DNA of 25,687 bases, taken from the NCBI GenBank assembly GCA_003194525.1, contig NBIV01000470.1, positions 1 to 25,687 on the forward strand. Reading direction: 5' to 3'. The notes under the pieces were generated by a model. It searched no databases. It was not told where the DNA came from and was given only the letters and a program-made list of their open reading frames with translations. This DNA comes from Gracilariopsis chorda (taxonomy: Eukaryota; Rhodophyta; Florideophyceae; Gracilariales; Gracilariaceae). The stretch's first letter is position 1; every line of letters starts with the position of its first letter. Below are positions 5,829 through 25,687 of this stretch, piece by piece. A program made the translations under genes and the position numbers.

Positions 5829-5856
5829 AGAAACTACATAGGTTGACTTAAACGTC

Positions 5857-5905: not shown

Positions 5906-5962
5906 AAAATACTTGCATTCTACAAAACACGCCACTCAAATGTTTCTTTCGCTTCTTAACGC

Positions 5963-5997
5963 CTGCAAAGCATGCAATGGAGCCACTTGTCAGTTCC
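5963..5997 (+). repeat. Helitron 3'-terminus-like sequence (right copy)
   Basis: A degenerate hairpin TGC-AAA-GCA and the tail GCAATGGAGCCACTTGTC match the window's first 32 bases with few differences, after which the two diverge. The right copy continues CAGTT where the left has CTGAT, so both could derive from a CTAG-like end. This position, 135 nt after the last helicase codon, is where a Helitron 3' end is expected. Confidence 0.5.
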
Positions 5998-6440
5998 TCT
6001 CGAGAGGCGAAGAAAATATCTCACAGCTCTAGCTGAGATGCGCTTTACACCGTTAGCAATAGCTTCATAAATCATTCATTGTGCAGTGGGAGCTTTATTG
6101 ATGTTTGTCAGGAAAATTTGGCGCACTCTTTTGTTCGTTGAAACTGCTTCGGGTGGCGGAGTTGTGGATGGATTGATTTTATTATTTGAGTCTGTGTCTG
6201 GTGAAATGTTTGTTGTACTCTCTGTCGTTGTGAAGAGAGATCGTGCAGTTGTATTCTGTAAGCCTATGTGGGCGAAAGCGTTAAACAACAGTGAGGCATT
6301 GAGAGCCATATTTGATGCTTTGTGACAATTGGGGTGACTGTGGTTCTGAGATGACCATTGGAGGGTCTTGATGCATGTATGAGTTCAAATTTGGCCCCAG
6401 TACCATCGTGATCCACGCTATTTCTGTATGGGGTCGTGGT
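5998..6440. other. Non-coding flank of the Helitron
   Basis: Short open frames on both strands near 6076-6325 mirror each other and show no recognisable domain. I see no RNA gene or promoter here. Confidence 0.5.
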
Positions 6441-6442
6441 AA

Positions 6443-6550
6443 CCACACTCGAAATAGTGTGGACCACACTAATCTGCGTGTTTATACTATTTCAGAAACC
6501 ACACTAATCTGCGTGTTTACACTATTTAAAGAACCACACTAACAACAGCG
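6443..6550 (+). repeat. Hairpin plus 35-bp tandem repeat
   Basis: CCACACT (6443-6449) pairs with AGTGTGG (6456-6462) around a 6-nt loop. Directly after it, a 35-bp unit starting ACCACACTAATCTGCGTGTT occurs at 6463-6497 and 6498-6532, and its first 11 bases occur again at 6533. The word CCACACT therefore appears four times, as in an iteron-like cluster. Confidence 0.8.
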
Positions 6551-9399: not shown

Positions 9400-10084
9400 C
9401 GCTTCCTGTTGAAACAGTTTTCATTGCGTTGTTTGCATATGTTGTAGGGCCGGTGGCTGCAATACATAGTGTTCGAAAGAAAAAAGGGCGCGCTTTTTGA
9501 ATATATCTTTACAACGACTAACCCAAGAATAGATATCTCACAGTATGAGATGAACTACTTCGATGTTGCCCTCGTTTTCCCTTATGAGCAAGACTCGTGA
9601 AAATGGGGACAAAAAGGGGCTTGTCAATTTTGGGATTTCTGTCGAATTAAGATGCGGACGGATACATGAAAGGTGGCAATTGCAACACTTTTTAAGTCAG
9701 TTCACCGTCTTTCTGGACCTAATGCTTTAGCAGTGACATAGAACCTCAAAATGTTTTGCCTCACAGAAATCTCATAGGCTTTGACAACCGCTTTGAGAGA
9801 AATCTGACGATTTTCCGAGCCAGCTTCTCTAACTTGTCAATCCAGCATCGAATCTACTACCTTCGGATAAGAAGCGCCCCCGTTTATCATGCATCAAAGA
9901 TGAATACGTAATCTCAACTTTTTCGCCTTCTTTTTCTTCCTCTTTCTCTTCTTCTTATTCTCCTTTAATTTGGTCTGATACAACCAATTATGTAACACCA
10001 GGAAAGCTATCCCACAAATAGTTCTTCCTCCTGAGAAAGACCAAAAGCATTGACTGCCATCTTCTAATCGACTCTAGAAAGGAA
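9400..10084. other. Non-coding flank of the transposase
   Basis: It holds a pyrimidine-rich strip near 9920-9965 and CAGTGACATAGAACCTC at 9732-9748, which resembles the CAGT...GAACCTC style of pogo/Tigger terminal repeats. I could not find its inverted partner on the other side of the transposase, so the element ends remain unplaced. Confidence 0.35.
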
Positions 10085-10462
10085 ATGTCCTTTCTTTCTC
10101 GCGATATAGATAACTCATCTCGCCGAGAGGCATTGGTCAGCGGGCATCGAAATAAGAAGTGGTTTACATCTTTTTTCGCCTTTGTGCCGCACTCGTATCA
10201 AGCATTCTTATTGTCCATGTACGATCCTACAGGTGTGGTGACTGTACATGACAGCTGCAGATTGAAGCTATTATTGCTTCAACACCTCCAGCCATGTGCC
10301 CTCGGCAAGCACATGAGAGGCCACCACTCAGCGGGTAACCACCGTGAGTACTTTCTACTGAAGACCGTGAAGCCAGGATCGAGTCCTGCAACGGCGACAT
10401 CCCCCAGTTCTCTACAAGAATATTACATCTTCGTTTTACCTTTGCCCAAACCAAGTCTCTGA
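10085..10462 (+). CDS. Unrecognised 125-codon open frame
   Basis: The frame starts at an ATG preceded by GAAAGGAA and runs 125 codons without a recognisable domain, signal peptide or membrane segment. It faces the 3' end of the minus-strand vWA gene, 208 nt away. No TATA box was seen just upstream. Its composition is unremarkable, and an ORF of this length can occur by chance. I list it as a weak candidate only. Confidence 0.15.
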   Translation: MSFLSRDIDNSSRREALVSGHRNKKWFTSFFAFVPHSYQAFLLSMYDPTGVVTVHDSCRLKLLLLQHLQPCALGKHMRGHHSAGNHREYFLLKTVKPGSSPATATSPSSLQEYYIFVLPLPKPSL

Positions 10463-10574
10463 ATTCCGCCATTGGTGCACGTTGTACTAACCAGCGCACT
10501 AGCATTTTGAAGCAGGACGCAGGGGAAAGGGTGTACTACTGGCCTTTTACAGTTCCGCCATTTGTTATTTTCGA

Positions 10575-10580
10575 TTTATT
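10575..10580 (-). terminator. Polyadenylation signal of minus-strand vWA gene
   Basis: TTTATT on the + strand is AATAAA on the - strand, about 90 nt past the stop codon of the 10670-11368 gene. This is a normal distance for a compact eukaryotic 3' end. Confidence 0.5.
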
Positions 10581-10669
10581 CTATTGAGGAACTACATAGA
10601 AACAGGTTGAGGGAACCGAAGCTCTTCAAGTTTCTTTGGCCCATCCTCCGTGAACGCCAATCCTTCTGC

Positions 10670-11368
10670 TTACAAATCGAGAGAGATGCCACAGATCTCG
10701 GCCACTAGATCTTCCACCTTCTCGGACAGTTCATCGTAGTCATCAACAGTGAACACGCCTCCATTTTCTCCAGCAACCTCGCTCAGAATACGCTCGCCTT
10801 CCTTACCAGGGTATCCAATGCTAACGGTTGAAATTTCACCGCCGACTTTGCGCCTGAAGTTGTTGGCACGACGAATAGGGTCACCTCCCAACGTGTTTCT
10901 TCCATCGCCAATCACCACCATCTTGTTCACAATATTTGCGTCGGCGGCCTTCTTCCTTGCTCTACGCAGCTGTGAGTGACAGAATACAATGCCAGATCCG
11001 ACTGAAGTCTGGGAGTCGTGCCTGTATGGCGAAAACCCGACTTCTGTGTTGAAGGTGGCCACGTCACCGGTCATAGACGCGATCTTGTACGTGCGTCTTC
11101 CGTACTGTCCGGCGGCAAATTTGGTTCGGCGGTCATTGCCAAGAATAGCAGTGATATCGAGGATGAAATCCCTTCCATAGAAGAACTGCTGCTTAGTTAC
11201 AGAACCACTTGTATCCAAGGCAAAGCAGACATGAGCGAGACATCCACGGGCTTCCACTGCTTCTGAAGCAGTCCTTATGGTGTTTTGGTATCTGAGCTTT
11301 GCTTCCTCAACAGATCGACAGCTGGCGTACGCAAACAGCAAAGCGAGAACAAAGAAAAACTTTAACAT
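10670..11368 (-). CDS. Secreted vWA-domain protein with intact MIDAS motif
   Basis: This encodes a 232-residue, intronless protein. It opens with a clear signal peptide, MLKFFFVLALLFAYASC, and then one von Willebrand A domain from about residue 43 to the end. The MIDAS metal-binding motif DTSGS is at residues 52-56, with candidate partner residues T121 and D155 (in VVIGDGRNTLGG). vWA domains of this kind bind ligands through a divalent metal outside the cell, so an extracellular or cell-wall adhesion role is likely but unproven. Cysteines 43, 48, 130 and 226 are shared with the paralogue at 12588-13268, suggesting conserved disulphides. A TATA box lies 105 nt upstream and an AATAAA about 90 nt downstream. 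I find no break, and start and stop are clear. Confidence 0.92.
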   Translation of the reverse strand: MLKFFFVLALLFAYASCRSVEEAKLRYQNTIRTASEAVEARGCLAHVCFALDTSGSVTKQQFFYGRDFILDITAILGNDRRTKFAAGQYGRRTYKIASMTGDVATFNTEVGFSPYRHDSQTSVGSGIVFCHSQLRRARKKAADANIVNKMVVIGDGRNTLGGDPIRRANNFRRKVGGEISTVSIGYPGKEGERILSEVAGENGGVFTVDDYDELSEKVEDLVAEICGISLDL

Positions 11369-11470
11369 TTTTGTGATTGCGTTTGCGGTAGATGGTACTG
11401 GTTAGGAAGACTGATCAGATGAGTAGTTGAGGTGAGTTGAAGTTTCGCCGACTAAACCACAAGCTGGGTT

Positions 11471-11480
11471 ATTTATATAG
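11471..11480 (-). promoter_or_regulatory. TATA box of minus-strand vWA gene
   Basis: On the minus strand the sequence reads CTATATAAAT, about 105 nt before the ATG at 11368. This would place the transcript start near 11445 and give a 5' leader of about 75-80 nt without an intron. Confidence 0.65.
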
Positions 11481-12587
11481 AGGTCAAATGTGCTCCTGTT
11501 CTTCGACTATCGCCTCCTGCATCAGCAACACGTTGAATTGGATTAACAGGAAGTAAAGTCCAACAGAAGATTGTTGCTGACTTCTATTCATACAACACGA
11601 AAGAGCTTCTGCATATTAGGTGGCTGCCAATCTTCTCCATTAGAACCACGTTATGCATTCGATCTAACCCACAGGTACGGCTATTTGAAAATACAGGTCA
11701 TGAGCAACATGAAAAATGTTACCGGATCAAGTTCCGCTTGTGTCGTCATGAATTTGTTCCATGCGTACTTTGCCTACATGATCCACACTCACTGTGTTTT
11801 GCACCCCTTGCGAACACGAAAACTTCTCCTATCACGTTTGAAACGTGATAAATATCTTCGCAACCGAACAAGGAATTGTTAGCGTCGAGCTGTACACTGG
11901 CTCGGGAACCGCTCTTCTGGCAATAGTATACAGCCAACAAAGTTGCGTTGAGAACAGTCTTACCCTCGAGAGTGCGTCCTTTGCTGACGGGCACACCATG
12001 AACGAGATTTACGGTATTGCTTCTGCATTGGTGTCACGATGGAGGTAGACTGCCACAGTTTTTTAGACAGAATTAAGTAGGTTCTAACTCCCAAAGCCAT
12101 CAGCGAGCATATATGCGTACCTTCTGCAGTGCACACTCCTGGCTGCAGCGTTTGATGAAGTGTCCTGAGCACACAAGCTCGTGTGGCGTCGACGCGTCGC
12201 GCACCGCTGGTGTCTGCCTTGCTAATTTTATACTGCGGTTTGCCTGGCTCAAACTGGAAACGCCGCTGTAATCCTTTTGTATGCAACAAGTTGTAAAGCC
12301 AGCGAACTCAAGTCCAACATCCTTGCAGCCGCCACACCTCACTTCCCTTTCGGAGATGCTTTATGGAAGCTGGGCTGCTGGAACCATCGACAGGAGGGTT
12401 TAGTTCTTGGGACATAAGCAACTGTCAATGTTTTTCACGAAAAGCAAGAATGCCAGCGATACGTAGTCTGTTTCCGATTTCCATAGTGCGTCTATGTCAA
12501 AGATTCCGTTCGCCAGCTTCAAAACTCGCTTTCTGTCTCTTGTAACCCTGGCTTCTTCCGCAAACGAAGTTCCCCTACTGTGGTCAA
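11481..12587. other. Intergenic spacer between the divergent vWA genes
   Basis: About 1.1 kb separates the promoter of the left gene from the start of the right gene. Several short frames on both strands lack any domain or composition bias. The one notable site is the 21-bp palindrome at 11830-11850. I see no clear TATA box for the right-hand gene. Confidence 0.6.
11830..11850. promoter_or_regulatory. 21-bp palindrome between the vWA genes
   Basis: TATCACGTTT (11830-11839) is followed by one base and then the exact reverse complement AAACGTGATA (11841-11850). Such symmetric sites often bind dimeric regulators, and its place in a divergent spacer fits. Function is inferred only. Confidence 0.45.
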
Positions 12588-13268
12588 ATGAATTCGTCAA
12601 GGTCCACGTACCTTCTGATGGCAATATGTGCCTATTACGCCTTCTTCCTTTCCGATCGCTCAGTCGCAGCAGACGCACTTTGTTCGGAAACCGTAAACGT
12701 TCGGAAATCAGAGAAAACTAAACGTCGTTTACCGTCGTGTCCCGTATCCGTGTGCTTTGGGATAGACGGAGGGAGGCTAACAAGGACCCAGGTCAGACTA
12801 CAAAGGAACTTCTTTCGAGATCTCTTGAAGTCTCTTTCGAGGCGTAAGCACGTCAAAGTGGCCGCTGTGGAGTTCGGAGCAGCAAACAGAAGGTTATTCA
12901 AACTCACCTCGGACTTGGCTGAGGCTATAGAGATAGCTTCAAATATTCCGTTCAGGGGAGATGAACTTGCAAGTGTGAGTAGCTCGATTGTGTATTGCGA
13001 CAGCATACTTCGCCACGAAGAAAAGAGATCAGTGCGAATGGTTCTCTTTAGTGACGGAACTAATACCCTAGGAGGCAGCCCAGGGCGAAGGGCAGAGGTT
13101 TTCCGAACGAGGGCGGAAGGTGATATCATAGCCATCTCTCTGACGGATTCGGACAATAAGATACTGAAGGAAGTTACTGCTAAGAACACTAGAAACATCT
13201 TTGTTCTAGATTCAGATGAGTACGATCCGCTCCTTAGAAAAGTGACTGATCGATTGTGTGATGTGTGA
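12588..13268 (+). CDS. Secreted vWA-domain paralogue lacking the MIDAS motif
   Basis: This 226-residue intronless protein has a hydrophobic leader (residues about 9-21, LLMAICAYYAFFL) with a likely cleavage near SVAADA, then one vWA domain from about residue 50. It aligns with the 10670-11368 protein: CPVSVCFGIDGG matches CLAHVCFALDTSG, and FSDGTNTLGGSPGRRAEVF matches the GDGRNTLGGDPIRRANNF region. The MIDAS DxSxS is replaced by DGGRL at residues 60-64, so metal-dependent ligand binding is probably lost although D156 remains. Cysteines 51, 56, 137 and 224 keep the spacing of the paralogue. I chose ATG 12588 because it starts directly before the signal peptide. An AATAAA follows 67 nt after the stop. 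The pair looks like an inverted duplication that has diverged strongly. Confidence 0.88.
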   Translation: MNSSRSTYLLMAICAYYAFFLSDRSVAADALCSETVNVRKSEKTKRRLPSCPVSVCFGIDGGRLTRTQVRLQRNFFRDLLKSLSRRKHVKVAAVEFGAANRRLFKLTSDLAEAIEIASNIPFRGDELASVSSSIVYCDSILRHEEKRSVRMVLFSDGTNTLGGSPGRRAEVFRTRAEGDIIAISLTDSDNKILKEVTAKNTRNIFVLDSDEYDPLLRKVTDRLCDV

Positions 13269-13334
13269 TCATGTCATCCGATGCATGGAAGATGATTTAA
13301 ATGAGTATACATGCATCGGTGAGAGCTGTGAGTG

Positions 13335-13340
13335 AATAAA
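13335..13340 (+). terminator. Polyadenylation signal of plus-strand vWA gene
   Basis: AATAAA lies 67 nt after the TGA at 13266-13268, at a usual distance for a compact gene. Confidence 0.5.
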
Positions 13341-14094
13341 TGAGTCCGTCGTGCGTGCTTTGCGTTCGTACTATATTGTACAATCATTTCTACGACACAA
13401 TTTACGCTCATTCAAACGTAATCTAACCAACGCAGAGTTCAAACTTAGCTTCCGACTGCGATTTCAAAGAAACACAAGCTGTGTCACTCATCCCACAAAC
13501 ATATTGTAAGTTTATTTAAGATCTTACGCAACCATGAGTACTATAACCACAACTTCTAGTGCAGTTCACTTATGTAAACGACTCTCGCGCAGAGCCTCTT
13601 CACAATGTGAAGTTCACATGCAGTGTGCTCGTCGAGGATCGTAGAAGCTTTTCCCGAACTTCGTCCATCCCAACATGAAAGAGCTAATGTGCGCATGGGA
13701 TGAATGCATGGAGTGCGTAACCAAAGCTGCGGTTCTTTGCTGGAAAGAAGGTCATTGGCACCATTCCGCCTCCACAACGCGAAATAGAGTTACACAGCAA
13801 TGCATCGAGCAAGCAATTCTTTCAAGCTTCGCGAGAGCCTTATTTCAACAAACGGACCAATAAAATTGCGTTTTTGGCGCGCTTCACACTGAAAGGCACC
13901 GTCCTTGCTGTATCTTCTTCCCGAGGCAGTCTCGTGCTCGAGAGGGGCAATGACTGAGCACGTTCTGCTGTCCATGTTGTTCACATATCTTGGCTATTTT
14001 AAGCGCTAGGCAAGCAAAGCGTGAATGCGTTTGCGTGCATGCCTGCGACGGTTCCTTCAAATGCAGCAGCAATCCCGTCGGTCGCGAAATTGGT
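13341..14094. other. No recognisable gene
   Basis: Several short frames occur on both strands, none longer than about 75 codons with a recognisable motif. No RNA gene or repeat was identified. Confidence 0.5.
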
Positions 14095-14156
14095 AGAATG
14101 TTCCAGCACTGCTGGAACACACGTGTAGAGTGCTCCAGCAGTGTCTGGAGCATTCT
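14095..14156. repeat. Nested inverted repeat, 25-26-nt arms
   Basis: AGAATGTTCCAGCACTGCTG and the next bases (arm 14095-14119) pair with 14131-14156 across an 11-nt loop, with a few G:T or unpaired positions. Each arm is also self-complementary: TTCCAGCA pairs with TGCTGGAA inside the left arm, and TGCTCCAG with CTGGAGCA inside the right. The DNA can therefore fold as one long stem or as two small hairpins. Confidence 0.75.
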
Positions 14157-14336
14157 AAGCTTGGCTGGCCTAGCATTACCACTGTATTCGGTGATGCAGG
14201 CGCCAGTTGCTAAATTACTATTGGTTAGTGTGCAGCTCCAGAGGCTTATGGAAGCCAATGGAGTAACCTAGACGCACACATGAGTAAGTAGCAAATAGTA
14301 ATGCGTTTCTATGTAGCTTTGTATGCTTTTTGACTC

Positions 14337-14343
14337 TATAAAA
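14337..14343 (+). promoter_or_regulatory. TATA box with no intact gene downstream
   Basis: CTCTATAAAATGGC is a strong TATA-box context. Downstream lies a C/A-rich stretch like the 5' leader of the left vWA gene, but no ATG opens a convincing frame. Coding-like residues LVRPLLLFAYFKCG at about 14458-14499 resemble a signal peptide that lacks a Met. Confidence 0.4.
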
Positions 14344-14472
14344 TGGCGAGTTGAGCACCGGGCTTCGGTCGGGACTCATCCCAAGAATCACATCATAACT
14401 TCCTCACCCCGACAACTGTCTCAACTAGTACTATCAACCATCAACTCGCAACCGCACTTAGTGAGACCCTTG

Positions 14473-14848
14473 CTACTTTTTGCATACTTCAAGTGCGGCA
14501 TTACCGTCTCTGCGAACGGTTGAAGCGCCCTTCGCGTAGACGGGAGACGAGTAATGTGTATCAAAGGCGCTTTTGTCGTCTGTGAGCTCCCACCGGAGCT
14601 TCGCTCGAATAACGGTGACGGTCGAAAGACTTGGTGGTGTCCGGCCGGAAGTGCTTGACGGGACGCTGTCCGCAGGCAACATGCCGTGCAACCTCTCTTG
14701 AAAAGGGCCAGATTTGGTATAGGGTGAAAGCATATCCCGCTGGTAGTAGCTCTTCTTCGGGAGCCCTGTAAGGATTGTGCGCACCTGCTTCTGGTTGGTG
14801 CAAAAGTGGGTAGGCTGCAGAAATCACTTCATATTCGGATTGTCTCAC
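14473..14848 (-). pseudogene. Unrecognised minus-strand coding remnant
   Basis: Two overlapping minus-strand frames (14848-14561 and 14784-14473) look more protein-like than the surroundings. The first gives SEYEVISAAYPLLHQPEAGA and the second KLRWELTDDKSAFDTHYSSP. A single frame change near 14650-14700 would link them into one reading. I recognise no family. It may be the end of a broken gene or an unknown element. Confidence 0.25.
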
Positions 14849-14856
14849 CAGAAGCC

Positions 14857-15400
14857 GAGACTCTGACTCTTAGTGACCCTTGAAATAATTCTTGGGTTGT
14901 GCGCCGTTTCAAGAAGTATCAAGAAGTTTGTGTTTGGATTGAGCCCTGTGCTCTCCTTTTTTATTTGTTGTTATCGGTGCAGGTTGAGTCTTTTTGGTCC
15001 CTGCATTGGTCGTTCGTTTGATCTTTTGTTCGTGTCATTTCATTTTGTTGGGGCTTCCAGCTACGAGGAACGCCCTTTTTAGGCTAATTTTTCATTTCTT
15101 TTGGCCCCGTGCGTCACCGTCTCGTGATGGCGCCCACAAATTCTATCGTCCAGAAGCGTTCCGGTACCCTGATAATGAGAATGTTGCCACAGCATAATAG
15201 GAAACAAGCATTTGAATACACGATTAAGTCATCGTGAACGGGTCCGACTCTCGCCTGGTTCAATCAGTATTATTGAGATTTTCAAGCGTTTTGAGAGAAG
15301 CTCTTTTAAGATTCTGCAAAGAATGTACATTTCAGACTTCTGGAACAACAATTTTGAAGTGCAACGCCCTCAGGGAGGGATTCTGGGTACTTGAACGCTT
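14857..15400. other. No recognisable gene, left flank of the retrotransposon
   Basis: A hydrophobic 69-codon frame at 14873-15082 is probably chance in a T-rich stretch. No feature could be supported. Confidence 0.45.
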
Positions 15401-15415
15401 TCCCGATATTATCGG

Positions 15416-16267
15416 TTGTGTAGTGTGTATATGAACTACGCCCCACAATGGTGGGTATGGACACGTGGGACACGGTTTTGGGTCAATTGGCGGTTGGCCA
15501 CAGTAGTGGATGTTGCCACGGAATGTGGAGTATTTTAGTTAATTTTATTTATTATTTTCACACCCATTTCTGGGAAGCTAGTACTTAGTGCGACGGCGCA
15601 CTGCCGTCGCACCAGTAAACCTTCCCCAACAAGGGACCCCAACCTGGGGAATTGGCTCTGAGCTTTACCGCCTCCGCGTGTTCTCAACTCCTCCTAGGAG
15701 GGAAGCACCGTAGTGTACGGAAGTTCACCCCCCTTGCACATCTAAAGGAGACCCATCATTGGGAGTACTAATTGTTCCAATCATATTGGTGTTTCGCCCT
15801 GTATAGGGAGTCCTGTCCACCGGCATTGCCGTATCTACTCGTCGCTCTCGCGACCCACTTCGTCCTTCCTCTTTCCCCTTTTTAGGGTAGCACCTCCCGC
15901 TATCCGCGGCCCTCGTGTGCGCATCCGCCCACTCACCCCCACTTACGTGGAAACATACCTCTACTGAGGATCACACCCCGCTCACGCGGATACCGATTCT
16001 TCGCCTTCACCTCCCTGCGCGAGTCGCGACAGGTGTCCCTGGTCTTACAAACCGGCTTCGCCGTGACACCTCTGGGAGGGCTCTACCCAGCTGGGTTCAC
16101 CTCGTGAGAGGAAGATCCCGGACGTCTTTCGGTGTTTTTTCCCTTTGGGGCATTGCACCACAAAGTGGTCTCCCGACCTAGAATCGGTTTCTGTTTTCCC
16201 TCTTACGAGGTTTGTTTTTTTTTACCGGAAGTTCCGTGATCGTTTCCCGTCGTAACGGTATTTTCTC
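15416..16267 (+). other. Probable 5' LTR and untranslated leader
   Basis: This stretch precedes gag. An AT-rich strip (about 15530-15560) could supply a promoter. It is followed by a perfect 10-bp hairpin, GTGCGACGGC to GCCGTCGCAC (15588-15612), then a pyrimidine-rich, hairpin-dense leader of about 650 nt. No clear tRNA primer-binding site was found. TGGCGCCG at 16388 recalls an Asp-tRNA site but lies inside the gag start region, so I do not rely on it. Confidence 0.5.
15588..15612. repeat. Perfect 10-bp hairpin at start of the hairpin-rich block
   Basis: GTGCGACGGC pairs with GCCGTCGCAC around the 5-nt loop GCACT. It is the longest perfect stem I checked in the block. Confidence 0.9.
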
Positions 16268-17346
16268 ATGTCGAGAAATCCCTCCGACGCGGAGCCAGCG
16301 GTTACGCGTAGTCGCTCCCGCGACAACGCGGACACTTCCGAAGTTCGGTTCGTACCCCGTATCCCTATACGGACAAGTTCCAGCCGTGCTGGCGCCGCTT
16401 CATCGCGGAACGATACCCCCGACCGGGAACCCCGGAACCTCCTTTTGCCCTCGTTATACCCCTGCAGGGTAATGCAGCATCGGCTCCGGCTGTTGCTGCA
16501 GTGCCCCAGGCACCCCGGCCTGCTCCCGCTGTCGCGGCTTCAAGCCCCCGTGGAACGGGCGATAACACCCCCCAGGGGACTTCCCTGGAATCCCAGGTCC
16601 GCGCTCTGTGGACCGCCCATGACAGCCTTGTAGGGGAACTAAAATCCCTCCAAGAGGTGGTCTCGGCAACCCCCGTAAAGGAGGTCGCCGAGGAGCTCCG
16701 TATTTTACGGTCTGACGTCAACTCCGTGTTGGAGAGTTTGGGACAACCCGCCGCCTTCATCGAAGGAGTTGAAGCCCGATTTGATCGGATTGGTGCCCGC
16801 CTGGAGACGCTGGAGCAGTTCGTCCTCATGGACAAACCATCCCCGGGTGATCCGGTCAACGAGGCATCGCACAACGACCAGCTTGCTGGGAAGAAGAAAC
16901 GCCGTCACCGACGGAAACATCACCGAAAATATTCGGACTCCGATTCTTCGACATCGTCGGACTCACCCCGAAACCATTCGGTTAGGTCGAGCTCCTCGGA
17001 CTCCGACTCGGAGGACGAGAAGCGAGGCTACTCCTCCCGCTCGAAGCGGTCATCGGCCACTGAAGGTGTGGTCCGAACCCGCCAGAAGGGGAGAAGACAC
17101 CCCGGTCTCCGGGAATTGAAACCGACAAACCCGGATTACCGGAAGCTTTTATCATACCGGTACTACCGGCTTGAAGATTCGTCACTTGGACGTACGCCCC
17201 GTGGTACGGGAAAGGTGCGAGAATGCATTAAGCGAATGCAGCTCTCGCTCCGCAACCAGTATTTTACTGGAGAGGACCCAGTCCTAGTACTGGATTTCCT
17301 ATCCCGCTTTGTAGCGGAGGCCGATATCCTCGGTATGAATGAGTGA
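16268..17346 (+). pseudogene. gag: gag, N-terminal part
   Basis: Gag packages the element RNA into particles. ATG 16268 begins MSRNPSDAEPAVTRSRSRDN, which looks native, but the rest of this part is in another frame (open from 16312, running to 17346), so a frame change lies near 16440-16455. The second frame has an Ala/Pro-rich start, then a likely coiled coil (about residues 20-105 counted from 16501, with LESQVRALWTAHDSLVGELK), then a Lys/Arg- and Ser/Asp-rich stretch (SDSDSSTSSDS, SSSSDSDSEDEK) like RS-domain sequence. It ends at an in-frame TGA, 17344-17346, after which the same frame continues into the next part. Confidence 0.8.
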
Positions 17347-17620
17347 CAAGCCTATTTGGCTTTACCGTATTTCTTACGGGGAGTGGCGGAGGACCAATAC
17401 ACCTCTGTCAGAGGATCTTCTCGCGCCTCCGAGGGAGGAGTTACTTGCTGGCCGGAGGCTGTGCAGTATCTTCTGCGCTCCTACGCCACCAACACCGCTA
17501 TTCAGCAGGCTATCCTCGCTTTGCGAGATACACGCCAGCGTGCTGGAGAGACCGAGACTGATTACTCGGTGCGCCTTAACAAGGCTTTCCACAGATGTGG
17601 TAACGTATACCCCGCTGGGG
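17224..17620. repeat. Sample of the hairpin array in gag
   Basis: In 397 nt I find stems at 17224-17240 (TGCATT/AATGCA), 17256-17270 (CCAGTA/TACTGG), 17304-17317 (CCGCT/AGCGG), 17321-17333, 17365-17379 (CCGTA/TACGG), 17402-17414, 17515-17527 (CTCGC/GCGAG), 17535-17546, 17551-17570 (ACCGAG/CTCGGT), 17589-17600 (CCACA/TGTGG) and 17610-17620 (CCCC/GGGG). Confidence 0.85.
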
Positions 17621-18441
17621 AGCGCAGTACCATGTTCATTGATGGTCTTGACCCGGCAATCCGGAGTTTAGTTACCCGTTATCGGGAGGAAAAGCGAAGG
17701 ATCACCTACCTCGAGCTGGTCCAACACGCTCGAGCGGAAGGGGATGCACTTCGTGCAAGAACTCCGAACAATCGGTCTAAATCCGCCAAGGCGTTGTTGC
17801 TGGAAAGCGAAGCTTCCTCTCTCCCGCTCACCGCGGATGGGAACCCTGGACAGGAATTTGATACCGTGCATTTAGCGCAGGGGGATGGTGTGTCGATACC
17901 CACCAGTGAGTTACCGTCAACGATGGAGATGTCCCATGATACGGGAACAGAAGATCCCGTTCTATACGGTGGTAACAGTCGGGTTCAACCCCAACGACTC
18001 CCGTTTTCAAACGGTCAATCCCGTTATCAACGGCCTGGATGGACTGACACCCGCCCTGCGGTTCGCTTCTCCGATACTCGGAATAATAATCCGCGTGTCG
18101 CGGTGCTGGCTCTCATTTGCCACCTGTGCTATGCCCATGGCCATACCTCTCCTCAGTGTATTTGTTCACTGAAGGATATGGCCAAGGTGGTGGCAAATTA
18201 TGAGGCCCTCACTCCAGAGGAGAAACGTTCCGTCCCGACGGCTTCCTACCTCCGTGCTAAAACGGACTTTTCCCACGCCCTACCACAGACCCCGCGTGCG
18301 CGGCAAGCTTCATACCTCCCGATTCGGGAGATCATGCAACCATCCGTTGCGACCCCCGCTTATGCGGATAGAAACCCCCGTCAACCGTATGAAGCACTCG
18401 TTGTCGAGGAAACCAACCCAAAGCCGAAAGCGGAAAACTAA
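17347..18441 (+). pseudogene. gag: gag, capsid and nucleocapsid part
   Basis: This continues the previous gag part in the same frame after a TGA. It opens QAYLALPYFLRGVAEDQY, a retrotransposon-gag capsid pattern, with ETETDYSVRLNKAF further on. Near 18117-18158 it has the zinc knuckle CHLCYAHGHTSPQC, exactly C-x2-C-x4-H-x4-C, which binds nucleic acid. The frame stops at TAA 18439-18441. The pol frame is already open from 18393, one base back, so gag and pol overlap by about 48 nt. Without the TGA, gag would be roughly 720 codons, long for the family because of the Ser-rich stretch. Confidence 0.85.
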
Positions 18442-20555
18442 CTGAGGGAGTCTCCCCTTTGGGAGAGGCGTCCTCAAGAACGAGGCTGTTGGCACCCGAG
18501 GCGTCCTCGCCTCGCTCCCCGGTGAAAGTCCTCTCGAGGAAAGACACCGCTGACGCGGACTCTGCGCACCTCGGTGTGTTGCGTCGCCCGTGGATACGGA
18601 GTGAAAATCCCCGGATTCCCGGTAGAGTCTTGGTCTTGGCCAAGCGCAATTATAAGGTCTATGCCGACCTTGGCCTTGACCCCCAGTTTATGGTGAGGTT
18701 TCTCACCGGCCTGGATACAGGTGCAGGCCCCAACTTCGTTGTGGAAGCATTGTTACCCCCGCTTGTGCGGTCTCGTATCCGCTCTGACGCGGTCCCCGAC
18801 ATTTTGGATGCGAATAACAACCCGTTACAAACGGTGGGCACAGTGGACCTCGTCGTGAGACTTGGTAACTCCGTGGTGAAGTTGGACTTCATCGTTTGCC
18901 GTTCATTGGCAGCACCAGTCATACTGGGATGTGATTACTGCGACAGATTTGTCGACGCAATCAGGCCCCGCCTCAGGCGTGTAGAACTTGACGACGGATC
19001 GTCGGTTGTTCGCCGCCCGCTAAAGCGGTCCTCTCGGAACCAAGTTCCGCTCCCTGCTGCGCAGGAACCACCGCCCGCGTCCCGCGAGTCCACCAAGCTC
19101 CGCGTCGCTGCCTCGGTTTCTATACCGGCTGAGTCCCAAGTCTGGGTGCAGGTAAATTCCCGTCAACACGGTCTTCGGGTTATACAACCCCTCGCCTCGT
19201 TGTACGAGAAATCCCAGCTGGCGCTGGCTAATGGAATTGTCTCCATTTCCCCGGATGTCCCTTCCCGGATATTGGTTGCCAACCTTGGCAAACACCCCCA
19301 GTATCTGGTCAAACACCAAGTAATTGGGAGTGTAACCCCCCATCCTATGGGAATGCTGCCAACAAAGATGACAGCCGCCGATGTACTCGGAGTTACCACC
19401 TCTTCTGAGGAGTTCGCCCCGCCGTCCGAAGACGTCAAGTCTAAGGAGGGGGAGGAAACCGCTACTTCAGCGCCGAACATACCGAGTAACTCGGAATTGC
19501 GAACCACACCTGTTCCACAGGACAATGCTCCATCGAGCAATGACCGGATTGATCCGGAAAAAGCACTTGAAGCGCTGGACTTCAGCCACGTGCCAGAGTC
19601 GCACCGCGACAAACTCCGTACTATGTTACGGGAATTCACCACAATGTGGGATGGCTCGCTTGGCGAGATTAATGCAACGGAACACCGGATCGATTTAATC
19701 CCCGGTGCGCGACCGGTTGCACAACCCCCTTACAGGGCAGGTCCTAAAGCTCGGGAAGAGGAGCAGTCCCAGGTGGACAAGATGCTCCGCGCAGGTGTGA
19801 TTGAGCCCGCTCAATCACCCTGGGCATCCCCAGTTGTACTGGCTTTAAAGGCCGACGGAACCTGGAGGTTCTGTGTCGACTACCGCCGGCTCAATGCCGT
19901 GACTGTTATGGACACGTACCCCATCCCTCGTATGGACGAGTGCATTGACTCCCTTGGAGACGCCACCGTATTCACGGCCCTTGATGCCAATTGGGGATAT
20001 TGGCAAGTACCTGTCAGACAGGAGGATCGCGATAAAACCGCATTCACCTGCCATGCAGGAACGTACCGCTTCAAGCGGATGCAATTTGTGTTAGCCAACG
20101 CCCCCGCCACCTTTCAGCGTGCAGTAGATATTCTACTCAACCGCTTTAAGTGGCGGAGTTGTCTGGTCTACCTTGATGATATCATCATCTTCTCCAACTC
20201 GTTGGACGACCATCTCACTAACGTCCGAGACGTGCTCACCGTACTCCACGATGCGGGAATTACCCTCAAGTTAAGGAAATGCGAGTTTTTCACAGATACT
20301 GTGAAGTATCTGGGTCACATTATCCGTCCTGGACGGTTAGCGATCGAGAAAGCTCGAGTCAAATCCCTCGTTGAGGCGAAAGAACCCCGTACTCAAACGG
20401 AACTGCGCTCCTTTCTGGGACTGGTCAACGTCTATCGACGGTTTATCCCGAACTATTCGGATACTGCAGCGCCCCTGAACGCGTTGTTGCGAAAGGGGAA
20501 CCCCCCAAAACTGGAACATTTACGCCCGAGCAATCGGAAGCTTTTAACTCCTTAA
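18393..20555 (+). pseudogene. pol: pol: aspartic protease and reverse transcriptase
   Basis: This is the protease and reverse transcriptase part of pol. With the frame counted from 18459, the protease active site is LDTGAG at residues about 85-90. A linker follows, with reverse transcriptase at residues about 430-640: CVDYRRLNAVT, FTALDANWGYWQVPV, and the catalytic YLDD at 571-574 (Tyr codon 20169-20171). All essential residues of these two enzymes are present. The frame ends at a TAA (20553-20555), while the family sequence continues in another frame, so a base was lost or gained near 20500-20515, close to runs of C and A. No independent ATG fits. Expression was probably by -1 frameshifting from gag. 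Confidence 0.92.
20010..20078. repeat. Three hairpins within the reverse transcriptase
   Basis: CCTGT/ACAGG (20010-20022), CCTGC/GCAGG (20047-20059) and CCGCT/AGCGG (20066-20078, extendable to CCGCTT/AAGCGG) lie within 69 nt of highly conserved coding sequence. Nearby TTCACAG/CTGTGAA (20289-20305) has a 7-bp stem. Confidence 0.85.
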
Positions 20556-21183
20556 AGGAGGCTGTCACATCAGCACCAATCCTACATCTCCCAAAACTTG
20601 GGTTGCCATACTCCGTAGATACGGACTCGAGCGACTACCAAGTCGGGTGTGCTCTTTTTCAAACCACCCCCGAGGGGGAACGGCATCCAATAGGTTATTG
20701 GTCACGTTCGCTCAATGTTCATGAGCGGAACTACTCCGTATCGGAGAAAGGGTGCCTCGCCGTCGTATGGGCGATGACCACTCTGCGCCCCTACCTTATG
20801 GAATTCACTTCACCGTGTACACGGATCATTCCTCATTGAGGTGGTTGATGAATATCTCCGACCCGTCGGGACGCCTCATGCGCTGGAGACTCCGCCTCGC
20901 GGAATATGACTTTCAAGTCATTTATAGAAAGGGTGCGCAGAACACCCAGGCCGACGCTTTATCGCGGTTACCCACAAGTGGGGAAGCACTCCCAACGGAG
21001 GATGATGAAGTCCCATGCTTCATGGCTACAGACCCGGATAATCCGGAACATGCCGTCGAGGCTAGGCCAGAAACCTGGGACGAGGATGCTGATTTTGACG
21101 AACTACTCGCATCGCGAGATAAATCTGAGAACCCGTTACCGGGAAACTTTGTACCGGTATCACCGGAAGAAATGATCCGATAA
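20505..21183 (+). pseudogene. pol: pol: RNase H
   Basis: RNase H removes the RNA template during reverse transcription. The first part (frame of 20603-20839) gives the connection region and VDTDSSDYQVGCALFQ with a catalytic Asp, then SEKGCLAVVWAM with the Glu. A frame change near 20800 leads to FTVYTDHSSLRWLM, with the next Asp, and KGAQNTQADALSRL, with the last catalytic Asp region. The frame stops at TAA 21181-21183 but continues in phase into integrase, so this stop is a point mutation and not a natural end. Confidence 0.88.
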
Positions 21184-22385
21184 CAATTCGGCGACCGATT
21201 CTGTACGAGAATTCGTGCCCGTATCAACGGTGGTGAAGATCTCCCTTTCGGGGTAAACGACAAAGGCTACCTCGTAAGAAAGGTCGAAGCCCGCCCACAG
21301 ATTGTGGTACCACATTCCCTGCAATCGCGGGTGTTACATCTATCACACTACGCCCCCATTGGAGGTCACCCAGGTGGGAGGAAACTCTACCTAACCCTGC
21401 GAAGGGATTTCTATTGGCCCGCAATGGCGGTGGATTGCTACGCAACTGTGCGGTTTTGTAGCGAATGCGCGAAAAATCGCGTCAAACTCCGCAAAAATGC
21501 GAAGAAGATGAAACTATTCCCCGCAAGGGCGCCGCTCGAGTTTATTGCGGTCGATATTTTCGGACCATTACTCACCACGAAACGTGGAAACAAGTTTCTA
21601 CTTGTCATTACCGACCGCTTTTCTAAGCTGGTACGGACTGTCCCTCTTCGGAGGATAACCGCTCTCACGGTGGCCCAGGCTCTGGTGACGCACTGGATTT
21701 TTGTCTACGGTCCCCCTGTAGAGGTGCTCTCTGACAACGGGAAGCAGTTCGTGAGCAAGTTCTTCCAGGATGTTTGTCGCATCCTGGATGTCAAAACTTG
21801 TTCACGACTACCTACCACCCCCAGTGTAATGGGAAAGTTGAACGGTTTAACCGGACGTTACTTGTGGCGTTACGTTCCTACGTCGCTGACCACCCAACGA
21901 ATTGGGATCTCTACGCTGATGCGGTAACCTACGCGTACAATACGCAGGTACACCGGACTAACGGAGTTTCGCCATTCGAGTTAGTTCTATCTAGAACACC
22001 CTCGCCTGTGGCGCTGGAACCCCAAGCTACCTTGGACAATTTCCCATCTGTGGGTATCTACCGGCAGCAATGGAAGCAATGGCTTCCCAAGCTGGTCCCC
22101 GCGGCGCGGAAGTCTATGGCACGGGCCCAAGCCGCTTACAAGCGGGATTTTGACGCTCGCTTGCGAGGAAAACCGTCCCCGATTCGGGCAAATAACTACG
22201 CCTTCATCAGGAAGGAATACTACAACCCGGAACGGGAGAAGCGTCACAAACTCTCGCCTGTGGCGGATGGACCCTTCAAGGTCATCTCTGTTAACACCGA
22301 CACTGTCGTGGTAGAGATGGGGGACACGCACGAACGGATTTCCCGTGATCGTGTTGTCCTTGCCCTCCTCCCTCGTCAGAGGTAG
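21184..22385 (+). pseudogene. pol: pol: integrase
   Basis: Integrase inserts the DNA copy into the chromosome. The N-terminal zinc finger (two His near 21340-21365, then CSEC) lies at about 21320-21480. The catalytic triad is D (codon 21553-21555, AVDIFGP), D (21733-21735, LSDNG) and E (21840-21842, VERFNRTLL). The spacing of about 35 residues between the second D and E is the family norm. A one-base frame change in the AAAA run near 21794 separates the last E from the first two. After the core, LSPVADGPFKVISV carries the GPY/F-type motif. The last frame stops at 22385, but the neighbouring frame is open beyond it. Confidence 0.9.
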
Positions 22386-23794
22386 TCCTGGGTCCAGGCA
22401 ACCCCGTTTCTACGGACTCCGCTACACCGGAACAATCCGGGAGTACTAGACCTACGGTACTACCACACCCCAGCCGGGGACTCTCAGACCTACCGACTCT
22501 GTCGGACTCACCGGCTCAGCCGGGTAATTCGGGCCCCTCAGCGCCCGCCCCTACCACATCTGCCGCACTGGCGCGCATTTATACCCGCCAGGCGGGGAAT
22601 GTTATCCCTTATCTCGCCGCTCCGTCTAAGGAGGGGGAGGAGAACACTCGTTTTCGAGGAACGATATCACCGTCGCAACGGGAAACACACCGTAACATAC
22701 GGAACACTGACCTTGGAGCACGGTGTATGTCACGCGACACTAATCCCCCGTTCCCGGGCAGTGCTGTGCAACAGGAACCAGACGCGCAGGCCCCGCAAAA
22801 GCGGCAAATACACCGTTTGTCACGGGAAAACGAGAAGCCTCACTCGAAGACCGCAGCAGCGGAAAGGCAATCGCCCGATGCCTCGAAGCCGCCGTTGGCA
22901 GAAGTCCCCGCGGAAGCGGTTCAATCAGTTCGATCAGACCCGCGCCCTGGGGAGAAGGGGCGCCCAGATACGCCGGCCTCACAGGGGAATACCCACACCC
23001 CTCTTGGGGAAAAAGGCGGCCAAGCTGCAGTCGAAGCTTTAAGCCCTGGCTCGCAAGCACCGGAAACGCCTCCCGTCGTTGACGGAATTAAAGCCCCCGC
23101 TACGGGGAATAATTTGCGCCAACCCCCGCATCGCTGCGGCGAAGAACCGAGAAACTCGGGAATAACGCGCGCCATCGCACGCTCGAAACCGGTCGTACCG
23201 GACGCTGCTCCTCATCACGGAGATGGTGCACTGCGCTCAGCGGCAATTCCCCTGAAAAGGGTGTCATCGGCACCTGCCAGAACCCCCCAAAGGGGATTTT
23301 GACCAAAATACCGGTGTATCGGAGTTAGCCCCAGGCAACCCGTCAGTAGCCGGGGACACCACGGCGTCGCCGGAACGTATGGTGCAGAGCGCTCGTGCGC
23401 CTGGCAGGGAGGCGGTTTGCCACCCAATCACCGTGTCGCACGGGACCCCCCAGGGGATTGTGGAAATGACGATCCCGCAGGAGCGGTCATCTTCCCGCAA
23501 ACTCGCGGCTCGTGAGCTCAACCGCGAAGGCGGAGCCCAAGTCCCCAGCCAACTGGCGGTTCGCCCGGCCTACCGTGAAGACGGGAACAACGACACCCCA
23601 ATGGGGAATGACTTGCCGGGGAAAACCGTGACACCACACACTCTCTTGAGGGATATTTTCGCGCATGAGCAGCGGCCACTAGGACAGCGCACGGCAACGT
23701 CGGAGTTATCGCCGAACACCCTGCTAAGGGACATTATACCGCACATGGGCAGCCCTGGCAAGGGAGTACAACCACCACCCGGCACGGCCGGCAG
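22382..23794 (+). pseudogene. pol: Long Pro-rich linker after integrase
   Basis: The frame 22382-23302 is open for about 306 codons, rich in Pro, Ser, Thr, Gln and Arg, with no recognisable domain. A second open frame, 23379-23816, has similar composition. They bridge integrase to the chromodomain. In most chromoviruses this link is short, so a spacer of about 1.4 kb is unusual. Runs such as GNVIPYLAAPSKEG and PETPPVVDGIKAPATG are low-complexity. Frame changes near 22340-22380 and 23302 separate it from its neighbours. The hairpin density is as high here as in the enzyme regions. Confidence 0.6.
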
Positions 23795-24043
23795 GTCTAC
23801 GAACGAGAGTTCGTAGTAGACCGACTTGTCGGACACACCTGGAACCAGGATGGTATTCTACAATACTGCGTCCGCTGGTACGAGTACGACCCCAGTGGGG
23901 ATACGTGGGAGCCAAATGAACACCTCCCACGGTCGCAGGTTCTGCGATACCACCGTCAGACGGGAACTGCAGCCCAGCCACGCTGGTTAATGCCCAAGTT
24001 GGGTAACGTTGCCGCGCGAGCGGAGAGCGAAAGGAAAGGATAA
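23669..24043 (+). pseudogene. Chromodomain of the retrotransposon
   Basis: Starting at about 23798, one frame encodes YEREFVVDRLVGHTWNQDG, then LQYCVRWYEYDPSGDTWEP, then a NEHLPRSQVLRYHR end, and stops at TAA 24041-24043. This is a chromodomain (about 50 residues), with the aromatic-cage positions occupied by F, W and Y and the DTWEP signature. In chromoviruses it binds methylated histone H3 and directs integration. The frame is open only from 23669 and is not in phase with 23379-23816, so at least one frame change precedes it. Confidence 0.88.
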
Positions 24044-24137
24044 CAAGGCAAAGTCCGTCGAAGACGGGGAACTCAACCGAGAAGCACCGTTCTAAACGGG
24101 AAAGTTTATTCAGGGGAGCAAGCTATCTCCCACAATA
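24044..24137. other. Convergent gap between chromodomain and antisense gene
   Basis: Only about 94 nt separate the chromodomain stop from the end of the minus-strand reading frame. There is no room for a full LTR, so the antisense frame either lies inside the same element or belongs to a second element joined here. A purine-rich strip (GAGCGGAGAGCGAAAGGAAA near 24018) could be a polypurine tract. Confidence 0.4.
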
Positions 24138-25687
24138 CTACACTACACTAACTGGCATATGCCAGGGAAAGAAGAACCAGGAAACTGGACCAGAGGTTTC
24201 ACTCACCCCCATCGTCCGGGCGTAACCACCAGCGAGGCGGTAGGCCAACGCGTCCGCCATGGTGGTGACATCCCCCGATACCTCGGCAGCGCTAAGACCG
24301 GCACCGCGGAGGAAACGTGGGATGATTTCGTTTTCATTCGCCGTCACCCCGCTGGGGATTGAAGGTCCGGCACTTGCCGCCGAAGGGTCAGCAGCCGGCT
24401 CGGCCGGAGATGCCCCCTCTGGGAAAGCTTCCGCGCTAGCGCCGGTTTCCTCTACGTCCATCTCCCCGGGTTCTTCCGGTTCGTTATCGACCATTGGGTC
24501 ATCCCCGCCGTATGCGCGGTAGTAGTCGTCGGAATCGACGTACCCCACCGGGTGGTCTTCCGGCACATGCCGGGGCGTATCGCTAAGCTCGCGCGCCTCC
24601 TCGGAGGAAATTTCCCGGAACTCCCAGGGGTCGAAGTAGATAAAATCCCCCGCAAGGGCGGTGTTTCTACCGAGTCCCGGACCACCGTGTGTTACCGCTA
24701 CCGCCATCCAGACGACCGCTTTGCTCCAGCGGGACCTCACTCCAGCTAACGCTGTCGATGTACCCAAGTAATTAGAGGACCTCTTCATTGTTGGCCTGGC
24801 CCCCAAGGGGGATGCGAAGATCCAGGTTTCGGATCGCTGCCCGCACACGCGGTTGAAGGAACCAGAGACGATACTGGTCGTACGCCTCGTTGAGGATATA
24901 AGCCGCACTGCGGGCCGCCCACTCCGTAACCACTACGGACACAACCCGACCGGGGATCCTGCATGAGCAGCGAACCGAGGTACGTAAGTACCGGCGGGAG
25001 TTCTATGTAGCACCCCGGCAGGCTTCATGGAAGCGCCACCACTCGGGAGTGCTACATACCGACCTAGTCGGTGAGGCGGCGCAATCCGCTCTATCTCCAC
25101 GTTCTGATACGGGATAAAATACCCGAATCGGGATCGCCAACGCCGCTCGTAGCGGATGAAGTTTTGGAGAAAGTTGGACCGGTATTGCGGGGAAGGTACC
25201 TGAACTCCGCCGAATAATCGGTCGCTCCCAGCAAAGGGCCTCTTGCCGCGCTGCGGGGAATTTCCTCCAAGCGAGGGTCTCGAGGTGGAACAGGTTCTCG
25301 CCGTACCAATCCCCCGCGAGTGCGGAAGTAGCTAACGTCGAAGCCAAACTCCGGTGGGACCGGTACATCGAATGGAGCCCGGCTCTGCCGTTGATACGCC
25401 ATGCGCGTCAGCGCAGTCTGTGCCGCAAGTGACTGTCTCGCCCGAGTTTCTTTGGAGGTGGTGACGCGGAATCGCAATCCGGTGAACGCCAATCCCACGA
25501 TGTGGTGACTGCTCTGGGCAGATCCCCCGGAAGGGTGTCTGAACCATCCGCATAAGCGGTGACCAATCCCTCATTGAGGACGGCGACCGGGTGAAACCAC
25601 GGGGCAAGGCGCAGGCGCGACGCGTGATTCCGATTCATTGGGTTGAGCCCCACCAGGTGTTGTAAGTTGGCCAGTTGGACACCGGAG
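24138..25687 (-). pseudogene. Unrecognised antisense gene in the retrotransposon, broken
   Basis: Reading the minus strand from the window edge, protein-like segments follow one another in different frames: NHASRLRLAPWFHPVAVLNE (25653-25408 frame), ETRARQSLAAQTALTRMAYQ then PPEFGFDVSYFRTRGG (25498-25091 frame), NFIRYERRWRSRFGYFIPYQ (about 25180-25095), then AYILNEAYDQYRLWFLQPRV (about 24902-24843). Next comes the 24908-24138 frame with DFIYFDPWEFREISSEEARE, an acidic Asp/Glu/Pro/Ala-rich tail and MADALAYRLAGGYARTMG. I recognise no family. Plant Tat-lineage elements such as Retand carry antisense ORFs after pol, so an accessory role is possible. Alternatively it is a separate convergent element. 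The gene begins outside the window. Confidence 0.45.
24903..25155. repeat. Hairpins within the antisense gene
   Basis: The same style of stem continues where the coding strand is reversed: CCGC/GCGG (24903-24913), CCGTA/TACGG (24924-24938), GGTAC/GTACC (24979-24992), ACCGAC/GTCGGT (25058-25072) and CCGCT/AGCGG (25143-25155). Confidence 0.85.

Follow-up and report, generated by a model that had tools for sequence, protein, structure and literature searches.

Genome-scale ordered RNA structure (GORS) is a lowering of folding energy along a whole genome, and not a hairpin of fixed size that is repeated. In MS2, picornaviruses and the pregenome of hepatitis B virus (HBV), multiple dispersed packaging signals, which are spaced stem-loops, dock the coat protein (PMC6281560). 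The coding sequences of nematomorph mitochondria contain palindromes with arms of up to 142 bp, which have been proposed to persist by conversion (PMC6649704), and the genomic RNA of the yeast retrotransposon Ty3, which is A-rich (~36%), has been described as a mosaic of structured and dynamic regions (PMC11381356), according to the portions of these three reports that are drawn on here. In this study, we analyzed a stretch of 25,687 nucleotides from the red alga Gracilariopsis chorda (contig NBIV01000470.1, forward strand, here called C470), referred to as the window, within a searched genome of 91.3 Mb in 1,081 contigs. Its right-hand part holds an element that, judged by its predicted domains, is a Ty3/gypsy long terminal repeat (LTR) retrotransposon of the chromovirus type. 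A second, strict code of small hairpins, with rules that could be measured, overlies its coding sequence along some 10 kb. A literature search limited to open-licence papers turned up no description of an LTR element with such an array, in line with the first-pass annotation of this DNA, which knew of none.

Stems of at least 5 bp with loops of 3-8 nt, counted without overlap, numbered 162 between positions 15403 and 25687, compared with 51.0±7.7 in 40 block (local) dinucleotide shuffles (z 14.4). The same definition gave 83 stems in the flank (positions 1-15402), against 76.5±7.7 in shuffles (z 0.8). This bears out the dense hairpin array claimed by the first-pass annotation, with the flank at background. 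The same annotation had counted 11 hairpins within 17224-17620 and guessed at about two by chance; there are exactly 11, and 100 shuffles of this sub-window gave 1.7±1.1. A mini-hairpin occurs roughly every 20 to 60 nt along the element, and hairpins of 11-14 nt with a CC...GG base number 180 in the element versus 9 in the 15.4-kb flank. All 50 of the 50 loci first fetched from the genome, belonging to three families (A, B and C) that are ~68% identical in DNA, carry the array (z 6.4 to 26.2). Of eight arbitrary 6-kb genome windows, six lie at z -0.5 to 1.4, and a seventh (L052, z 19.6) contains a family A copy. L056, which is otherwise hairpin-poor, reaches z 4.1 overall and has seven CC hairpins within L056:1500-2500, possibly an element fragment.

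The hairpins are real, although the range first given for them (stems of 4-7 bp, loops of 3-8 nt) is too wide for this element, as the family A excess is confined mainly to stems of 4-5 bp with loops of 3-4 nt. In the window element, stem/loop sizes of 5/3, 5/4, 4/4 and 4/3 occur 75, 38, 112 and 82 times, compared with 9.1, 9.1, 32.8 and 33.8 in shuffles. Stems of 6 bp with 3-4 nt loops number 17 (5.4 expected), 4-bp stems are only mildly raised at loops of 5 nt (41 vs 25.3) and 6 nt (36 vs 23.8), and stems of at least 7 bp are near chance except for three of at least 8 bp with 4-nt loops. B and C use some 5-6 nt loops, with 4-bp stem excesses of +27 and +18 in B and +33 and +25 in C. The base is CC...GG, seen in 80 12-mers (4.8 expected) and 64 13-mers (5.5 expected), and the mirror arrangement GG...CC is at background; in family A, CC precedes GG in 181 cases, against 14 with GG first. 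Thus, of the form CCGNN-loop-NNCGG proposed earlier, the CC...GG base is constant in A, while the third-position G is found in 49-57% of the 12- and 13-mers. When fully paired CC...GG hairpins closed by 3-4 nt loops are sorted by length, there are 47, 80, 55 and 15 of 11, 12, 13 and 14 nt, then 2 and 1, and then none up to 23 nt.

For a control at the codon level, 3.4-3.6 kb of pol coding sequence from one real copy per family was shuffled 100 times with the protein, codon usage and every dinucleotide kept. CC-type hairpins numbered 58 in A (7.3±2.2 in shuffles, maximum 13), 37 in B (4.4±2.0, maximum 10) and 21 in C (3.9±1.9, maximum 8), so that the observed number was never reached in any family; a density no higher than in such shuffles was what the first-pass annotation had named as speaking against the array. 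Synonymous shuffles of the antisense gene described below, with codon usage kept, gave 14.9±3.1 hairpins where family C has 40, and 7.7±2.5 where the A copy L060 has 22. Chance or composition as the cause is ruled out by the block dinucleotide shuffles, the flank and the six background genome windows, and a protein or codon constraint is ruled out by the synonymous shuffles. CC hairpin density is 14-23/kb in each of six element segments, the richest being 22386-24100 (23/kb), and these densities together with the synonymous shuffles uphold the earlier claim that the array is element-wide (LTR, gag, pol, linker and antisense gene) and independent of coding. The features are as follows, with the basis of each in brackets.

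15355..16162, plus strand: 5' LTR (TGAAGTG...CACCACA), with hairpins inside from 15403 (comparison with both LTRs of the C103 copy)
15403..25579, plus strand: mini-hairpin array, compact and Watson-Crick paired, 180 with a CC...GG base (11-14 nt; 4-5 bp, 3-4 nt loop) (hairpin counts)
16166..16183, plus strand: candidate primer-binding site, beginning with TGG, right after the LTR (position only)
16268..18441, plus strand: gag region, start codon not established, frame interrupted in the window copy, 18 CC hairpins/kb (list of open reading frames, or ORFs; density)
18118..18159, plus strand: single CCHC zinc knuckle of Gag, CHLCYAHGHTSPQC (pattern match, not a Pfam hit)
18459..20555, plus strand: pol part 1, reverse transcriptase (RT; domain ~19848-20324) and a protease-like motif (PF00078, E 1.2e-31)
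20752..21183, plus strand: RNase H (PF17917, E 1.9e-8)
21304..22385, plus strand: integrase, zinc-binding part and core (PF17921, E 6.4e-14; PF00665, E 1.3e-11)
22386..23794, plus strand: linker region, proline-rich by eye (CC hairpin density)
23795..24040, plus strand: chromodomain (PF00385, E 2.5e-10)
24138..25498, minus strand: antisense reading frame or frames, open pieces 24138-24908 and 25091-25498 (ORF list; relative in family C)

The element starts at 15355, the start of its LTR, and continues beyond the window edge; the "leader" at 15403, where array and element had first been taken to begin, is part of the 5' LTR. The window ends before the 3' LTR, and the LTR boundaries were set by comparison with both LTRs of another copy, on C103, whose two LTR starts are 10,701 bp apart. 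The order is LTR, gag with one CCHC knuckle, RT, RNase H, integrase, linker, chromodomain and then the antisense reading frame; the Pfam search of the window found its four pol families in the order RT, RNase H, integrase, with the chromodomain C-terminal to integrase. No Pfam family matched the gag open pieces 16501-17346 and 17356-18441 or the antisense gene, and Pfam gave no match for an aspartic protease in 18459-20555, where a protease-like LDTGAGPN was spotted by eye. Both gag and pol are interrupted in the window copy, the integrase frame shifting between 21774 and 21927 (ORF list). The RT region is encoded at 64 places or more with 95-100% identity (64 of 5,258 candidates scored), and the searched 321-bp LTR stretch matches at 100% (rounded) at 40 of 42 places among the matches listed (40 of 1,498 candidates scored); because of these identities, the element was probably active recently. 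On C24, C28, C37, C76, C103, C104 and C262, the LTR stretch recurs at 100% (rounded) on one strand, 9.0-10.7 kb apart. Several proteins of Agarophyton chilense, another member of Rhodophyta, Florideophyceae, Gracilariales, are among the named RT relatives in the best 120 of 404 hits. Family C contains a relative of the antisense gene (46% over 54 amino acids; open frame there 605 amino acids, L063:2182-3996, minus strand); in an A copy the gene lies at L060:2-958 (minus strand), and there are two more relatives, P0121 and P0122. In the flank, two adjoining, opposite frames, 10670-11368 (minus strand, PF00092 found) and 12588-13268 (plus strand, judged by eye alone), resemble secreted von Willebrand A proteins, with a relative of the von Willebrand-type gene in Gracilaria domingensis; remains of a PIF1-like helicase and a DDE_1 transposase lie at 4434-5198 (plus strand) and 7746-8492 (minus strand).

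Further elements of the same genome, L076-L080, also carry the array (z 5.2-10.1). Since L078 closely resembles C, and L079 and L080 resemble each other, the host genome holds six sampled hairpin lineages: A, B, C, L076, L077 and L079/L080. The array was not seen in L073, L074, L075 and L081 (z -0.1 to 0.8); two of the six arbitrary windows at z -0.5 to 1.4, L055 and L057, hold distant Ty3 elements. A contig filed in a metagenome-assembled genome (MAG) of Robiginitomaculum (L065, JALZUP010000409.1) has the array (z 8.0), mainly with 3-nt loops and without CC preference. Its RT is 74% identical over 136 residues, and the contig is probably algal, contaminating the bacterial MAG. The scan of prokaryote contigs gave seven loci, and the six besides L065 lie at z -0.9 to 2.3; in one of them, L068, stems of 5 bp or longer closed by 3-4 nt loops number 34 (18.3 expected). 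Scans of viral contigs found no relative of the element, and a search for RNA-dependent RNA polymerase (RdRP) was silent, as were its controls. CC as a universal signature was rejected: family C mostly has its CC one pair further in, and the leading dinucleotide of L065, L076 and L077 is CG. In the RT tree, from which L055 (short RT match), L070 and L071 were left out, L057 and L072-L075 form one clade (ultrafast bootstrap, UFBoot, 93). Support for the deeper nodes around the hairpin lineages is weak (19-42), so that gain of the array cannot be distinguished from its loss. As the RT sequences place these elements, the trait follows the element lineage: the hairpin lineages have it, and the related clade is mostly without it.

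Hairpins recur at the same centres in different families, in 15 of 58 cases for A-B (0.7 under the null), 10 of 58 for A-C (0.4) and 9 of 37 for B-C (0.2), often with both arms changed in a compensatory manner, e.g. CCCTTACAGGG / CCCGTATCGGG. The RT core was compared among six lineages (A, B, C, L076, L077 and L079). L078 and L080 were not used because they nearly duplicate C and L079, respectively, nor was L065, which is incomplete. Shared hairpin centres numbered 49 versus 10.4±3.0 over 15 lineage pairs. Of 208 doubly changed pairs, 104 (50%) were Watson-Crick again and 5 were G.U, compared with 22% Watson-Crick when the partners were slid by whole codons. This is not the independent variation of the arms that the first-pass annotation had named as its other ground for refutation. 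In hairpin-poor relatives the figure was 94 of 266 (35%), which may reflect a shared ancestor with some hairpins.

Substitutions shared by at least three copies were counted in 16 family A copies, after misaligning copies (L003, L006, L010 and L016 of A, L048 of C) had been dropped. They fell on 17 of 764 stem sites (0.022 per site), 21 of 307 loop sites (0.068) and 232 of 3835 sites outside (0.061). Private mutations, pooled over A, B and C, were as frequent in stems (61/1264, 0.048) as outside (424/9978, 0.043), and mutational protection of stems in resident copies was rejected on this ground. In family A, stems are thus avoided by shared substitutions but not by private mutations, and it appears to be selection, and not a bias of mutation, that maintains the family A hairpins. 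B and C have no shared substitutions in stems and 2 and 17 outside, numbers too small for a test. The stem difference between two A subgroups lies largely in a divergent block near locus positions 4180-4950, where hairpins return in shifted register.

Such slow stems bear on a proposal of the first-pass annotation, namely that template switching by the element's RT turns near-palindromes into perfect ones. In a fuller form of this idea, such quasi-palindrome conversion would make as well as perfect the hairpins, as a functionless by-product. The trait does follow the RT lineage. In addition, inner paired positions at CC-N9-GG sites are two-peaked (0, 1, 2 and 3 in 46, 47, 24 and 55 cases), and a like argument was made for the nematomorph coding palindromes in the part of that report used here (PMC6649704). 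However, the outer CC...GG pairs are themselves in excess at hairpin spacings (138, 170 and 171 at N7-N9, and 127 and 125 at N5 and N6, versus 64-76 at N12-N15). Conversion should also lengthen stems, yet CC stems end at 5 bp except for three of 6 bp, and Watson-Crick pairing at the flanking positions -1/+1 of CC-called hairpins is avoided in A (8/181, 40.6 expected) and B (1/37, 9.9 expected). Hairpin calling absorbs C-G extensions into longer hairpins but not A-T and T-A, which alone stand at 7 versus 28.9 in family A; extension by G.U is not avoided there (7 vs 9.0). Nor is linker spacing random, as linkers of 6-11 nt are favoured in A (36 vs 20.0±4.1, P 0.0004) and those of 0-3 nt are nearly absent (1 vs 13.6±3.4). 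A rigid 21-nt lattice was not supported; echoes occur near 41 and 63 nt, and the order looks short-range. Conversion should not slow substitution either. Because of the outer-pair excess, the avoided extension in A and B and the slow family A stems, we disfavour template switching and consider it very unlikely.

The pairing rules speak to the chemical nature of the selected form. One-mismatch 5-bp hairpins were counted in nine sampled elements of seven lineages, giving observed/shuffled numbers of 305/222.7 for G.U (1.37-fold), 371/244.9 for A.C (1.51) and 1453/930.2 for other mismatches (1.56). G.U is thus treated like any mismatch, i.e., as no pair. In an energy model, random CC stems were kept if they were as stable as the real ones, with cut-offs at the weakest 2-25% of real hairpins. 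For CC 13-mers, RNA energies predict 0.79-1.05 one-G.U hairpins per perfect hairpin and DNA energies 0.10-0.20; for 12-mers, the values are 0.20-0.53 and 0.01-0.21. We saw 5 G.U (and 6 A.C) per 55 perfect 13-mers and 6 G.U (and 8 A.C) per 80 perfect 12-mers. The exclusion of G.U fits DNA stability better than RNA stability.

Ordinary genome-scale ordered RNA structure, selected for thermodynamic stability, therefore fits badly, because it predicts a G.U-tolerant hairpin set and G.U pairs are not used. Folding energy does lie below that of shuffles along most of the element (mean z -2.25 on the plus strand over 34 windows; -0.01 in the flank), B and C use some longer loops as noted, and GNRA loops number 21 of 532 (~14 expected). 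However, the minus strand is about as structured as the plus strand (mean z -1.96), loops of 5-8 nt are little used in A, and TNCG loops are not beyond chance (8/532 vs 8.4). CGNA loops are found 17 times among the 532 (6.3 expected), and GNRA, UNCG or DNA GNA loops as a general rule were rejected by these counts. A thermodynamic RNA fold alone leaves the CC/GG polarity, the avoided extension and the G.U exclusion without explanation, and we hold it to be a very unlikely account. The first-pass suggestion of ordered structure for packaging or reverse transcription stands as the leading reading only without this ordinary thermodynamic form.

By nearest-neighbour rules, the order of CC before GG makes no thermodynamic difference. 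This matters for another explanation, in which the first-strand complementary DNA (cDNA) folds into strings of small hairpins that prevent attack, annealing and deamination before second-strand synthesis, with no docking of Gag. The mismatch-like behavior of G.U is as expected for it, and DNA energies predict few G.U hairpins, nearer to the numbers seen. With a single cut-off for all lengths, however, DNA energies also predict too many (0.64 G.U per perfect 13-mer), and in family B taken by itself G.U exceeds the other mismatches slightly (1.76 vs 1.65). The polarity (181 vs 14) is not thermodynamic, and the lineage-wide difference would need a reason. We regard this explanation as unlikely.

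Predicted folding that is stronger than in shuffles on both strands would also suit a shield against hybridization or RNA silencing, small-RNA silencing being another of the causes first proposed. In this view, hairpins on either strand, with their short loops and linkers, would leave no extended single strand for guide or antisense seeding, and the stems would be far too short for Dicer. Two strong Piwi-domain genes were found in the host, together with two Dicer-like open frames that carry paired RNase III domains, and an antisense gene is present. However, the family A flanks are strand-polar: they bear a strand signature averaging 1.42 bits (leave-one-out, 159 hairpins), and the polarity learnt outside the antisense gene persists inside it on the plus strand (mean 1.00 bit, z 1.9, n 20). 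The shield gives no reason for the CC...GG base or the capped stem length, and hairpin-poor relatives with open RT frames in the same host (L073 and L074) lack the array. It therefore seems rather more doubtful still than bare folding of the cDNA. Piwi-domain fragments on C483, C648, C777 and C944 lie as opposite-strand pairs ~200 nt apart, repeated in 8,008-bp steps on C483 and C648; they form a tandem array of inverted Argonaute pieces, which is possibly a natural silencing locus.

Our tentative preference, which we put at well below even chances, is that the hairpins serve Gag as docking points along the single-stranded genome or cDNA of the element. The array would then have been selected as a repeated series of sites for docking or condensation that extends over the whole genome. 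Its units are compact hairpins with 4-5 Watson-Crick pairs and a short loop, CC/GG-based and with non-pairing flanks in A and B. The reader would be a protein sensing size, helix geometry and helix base. A protein reading hairpin size and base would jointly explain the CC/GG polarity, the avoided extension, the G.U exclusion, the outer-pair excess, the length cap and the slow A stems. It would most likely be encoded by the element, because the sequence of the helix base varies from one lineage to another and the array goes with the lineage of the element. The CCHC nucleocapsid (NC) part of Gag is the best candidate, because a canonical CCHC knuckle was found by pattern match in six of six hairpin lineages examined (A, B, C, L065, L076 and L077), and in none of the four hairpin-poor lineages examined (L072-L075) or in L057; those four (upstream pieces L082-L085) have another Cys-rich Gag motif, C-x2-C-L-S followed by one or two Cys. 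Acting on the genomic RNA in the particle, the first-strand cDNA or both, such a reader would pack the single-stranded form as spaced beads, and the strict pairing by DNA-like rules would favour the cDNA stage. A bolder version, which we find possible but doubtful, holds that the entire retrotransposon genome is a chain of Watson-Crick hairpin beads, each nucleocapsid-sized, and that the form under selection is the single-stranded cDNA. This would be a physical packaging code over the protein code, with a base sequence that drifts between lineages along with Gag.

Several observations weigh against docking by Gag. The correlation of CCHC knuckle and hairpins is essentially one evolutionary contrast, that of the UFBoot 93 clade, and its edge is soft: L072 is borderline (z 3.4), its RT core containing 12 hairpins, and L057, in spite of an overall z of 2.0, reaches 27 (12.0 expected) for stems of at least 5 bp closed by loops of 3-4 nt. 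NC knuckles prefer exposed G, and the loops and linkers of A are G-poor (18.5% and 20.6%, vs 26.9%). Unlike in classical packaging hairpins, no common loop motif was found among the 532 loops, which show minor enrichments only. In family C, stem extension is not avoided (5/21, 5.4 expected) and strand polarity is lacking (leave-one-out mean -0.01 bits); in a broader hairpin set counting nested windows, extension is not avoided in A either (54 vs 52.4). Folding of the plus-strand RNA retains 388 of 772 hairpin pairs, i.e., half. Finally, most hairpins are not shared. Only 78 of 445 lineage comparisons fully keep them, compared with 11 of 345 for hairpin-poor, also more distant, relatives; hairpin density is therefore conserved more than hairpin place.

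The hairpin-poor relatives in the same host provide natural controls for the rules of the array. If the reader is Gag, this is a testable case of a capsid protein recognizing and packing a whole genome; if the selected form is the cDNA, selection across a whole genome can act on the structure of the single-stranded DNA made in reverse transcription. In addition, synonymous sites in hairpin elements do not evolve anywhere near neutrally, which has a bearing on how insertions are dated.

Compared with GORS, the algal element likewise has a folding energy below shuffles along its genome; unlike GORS, its hairpins are fixed in size, pair type and, in A and B, base sequence, and G.U is unused. Yeast Ty3 belongs to the same superfamily, and the short palindromes at the 5' end of its RNA have been proposed to hold the dimer; the available part of the description of Ty3 RNA structure makes no mention of a uniform hairpin array (PMC11381356). 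The nematomorph palindromes, as far as the part of that report used here describes them, are similar in being perfect inverted repeats inside conserved coding sequence, with imperfect ones not in excess (PMC6649704). The algal array differs from them in that it lies in a nuclear element and has arms of 4-5 bp, avoided extension and, in A, arms under purifying selection. The dispersed packaging signals are alike in being many small, genome-wide stem-loops beyond chance whose spacing matters, although docking of a coat protein would be common to both only if the reading preferred here is right. They share a motif for the coat protein, e.g., the apical loop in MS2, according to the portion of the source drawn on (PMC6281560), whereas the loops of the algal element are without one. 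What sets the algal array apart from these signals is that it is Watson-Crick only, that its CC hairpins end at 14 nt but for three, that they occur at 14-23/kb, and that its carrier is an LTR retrotransposon.

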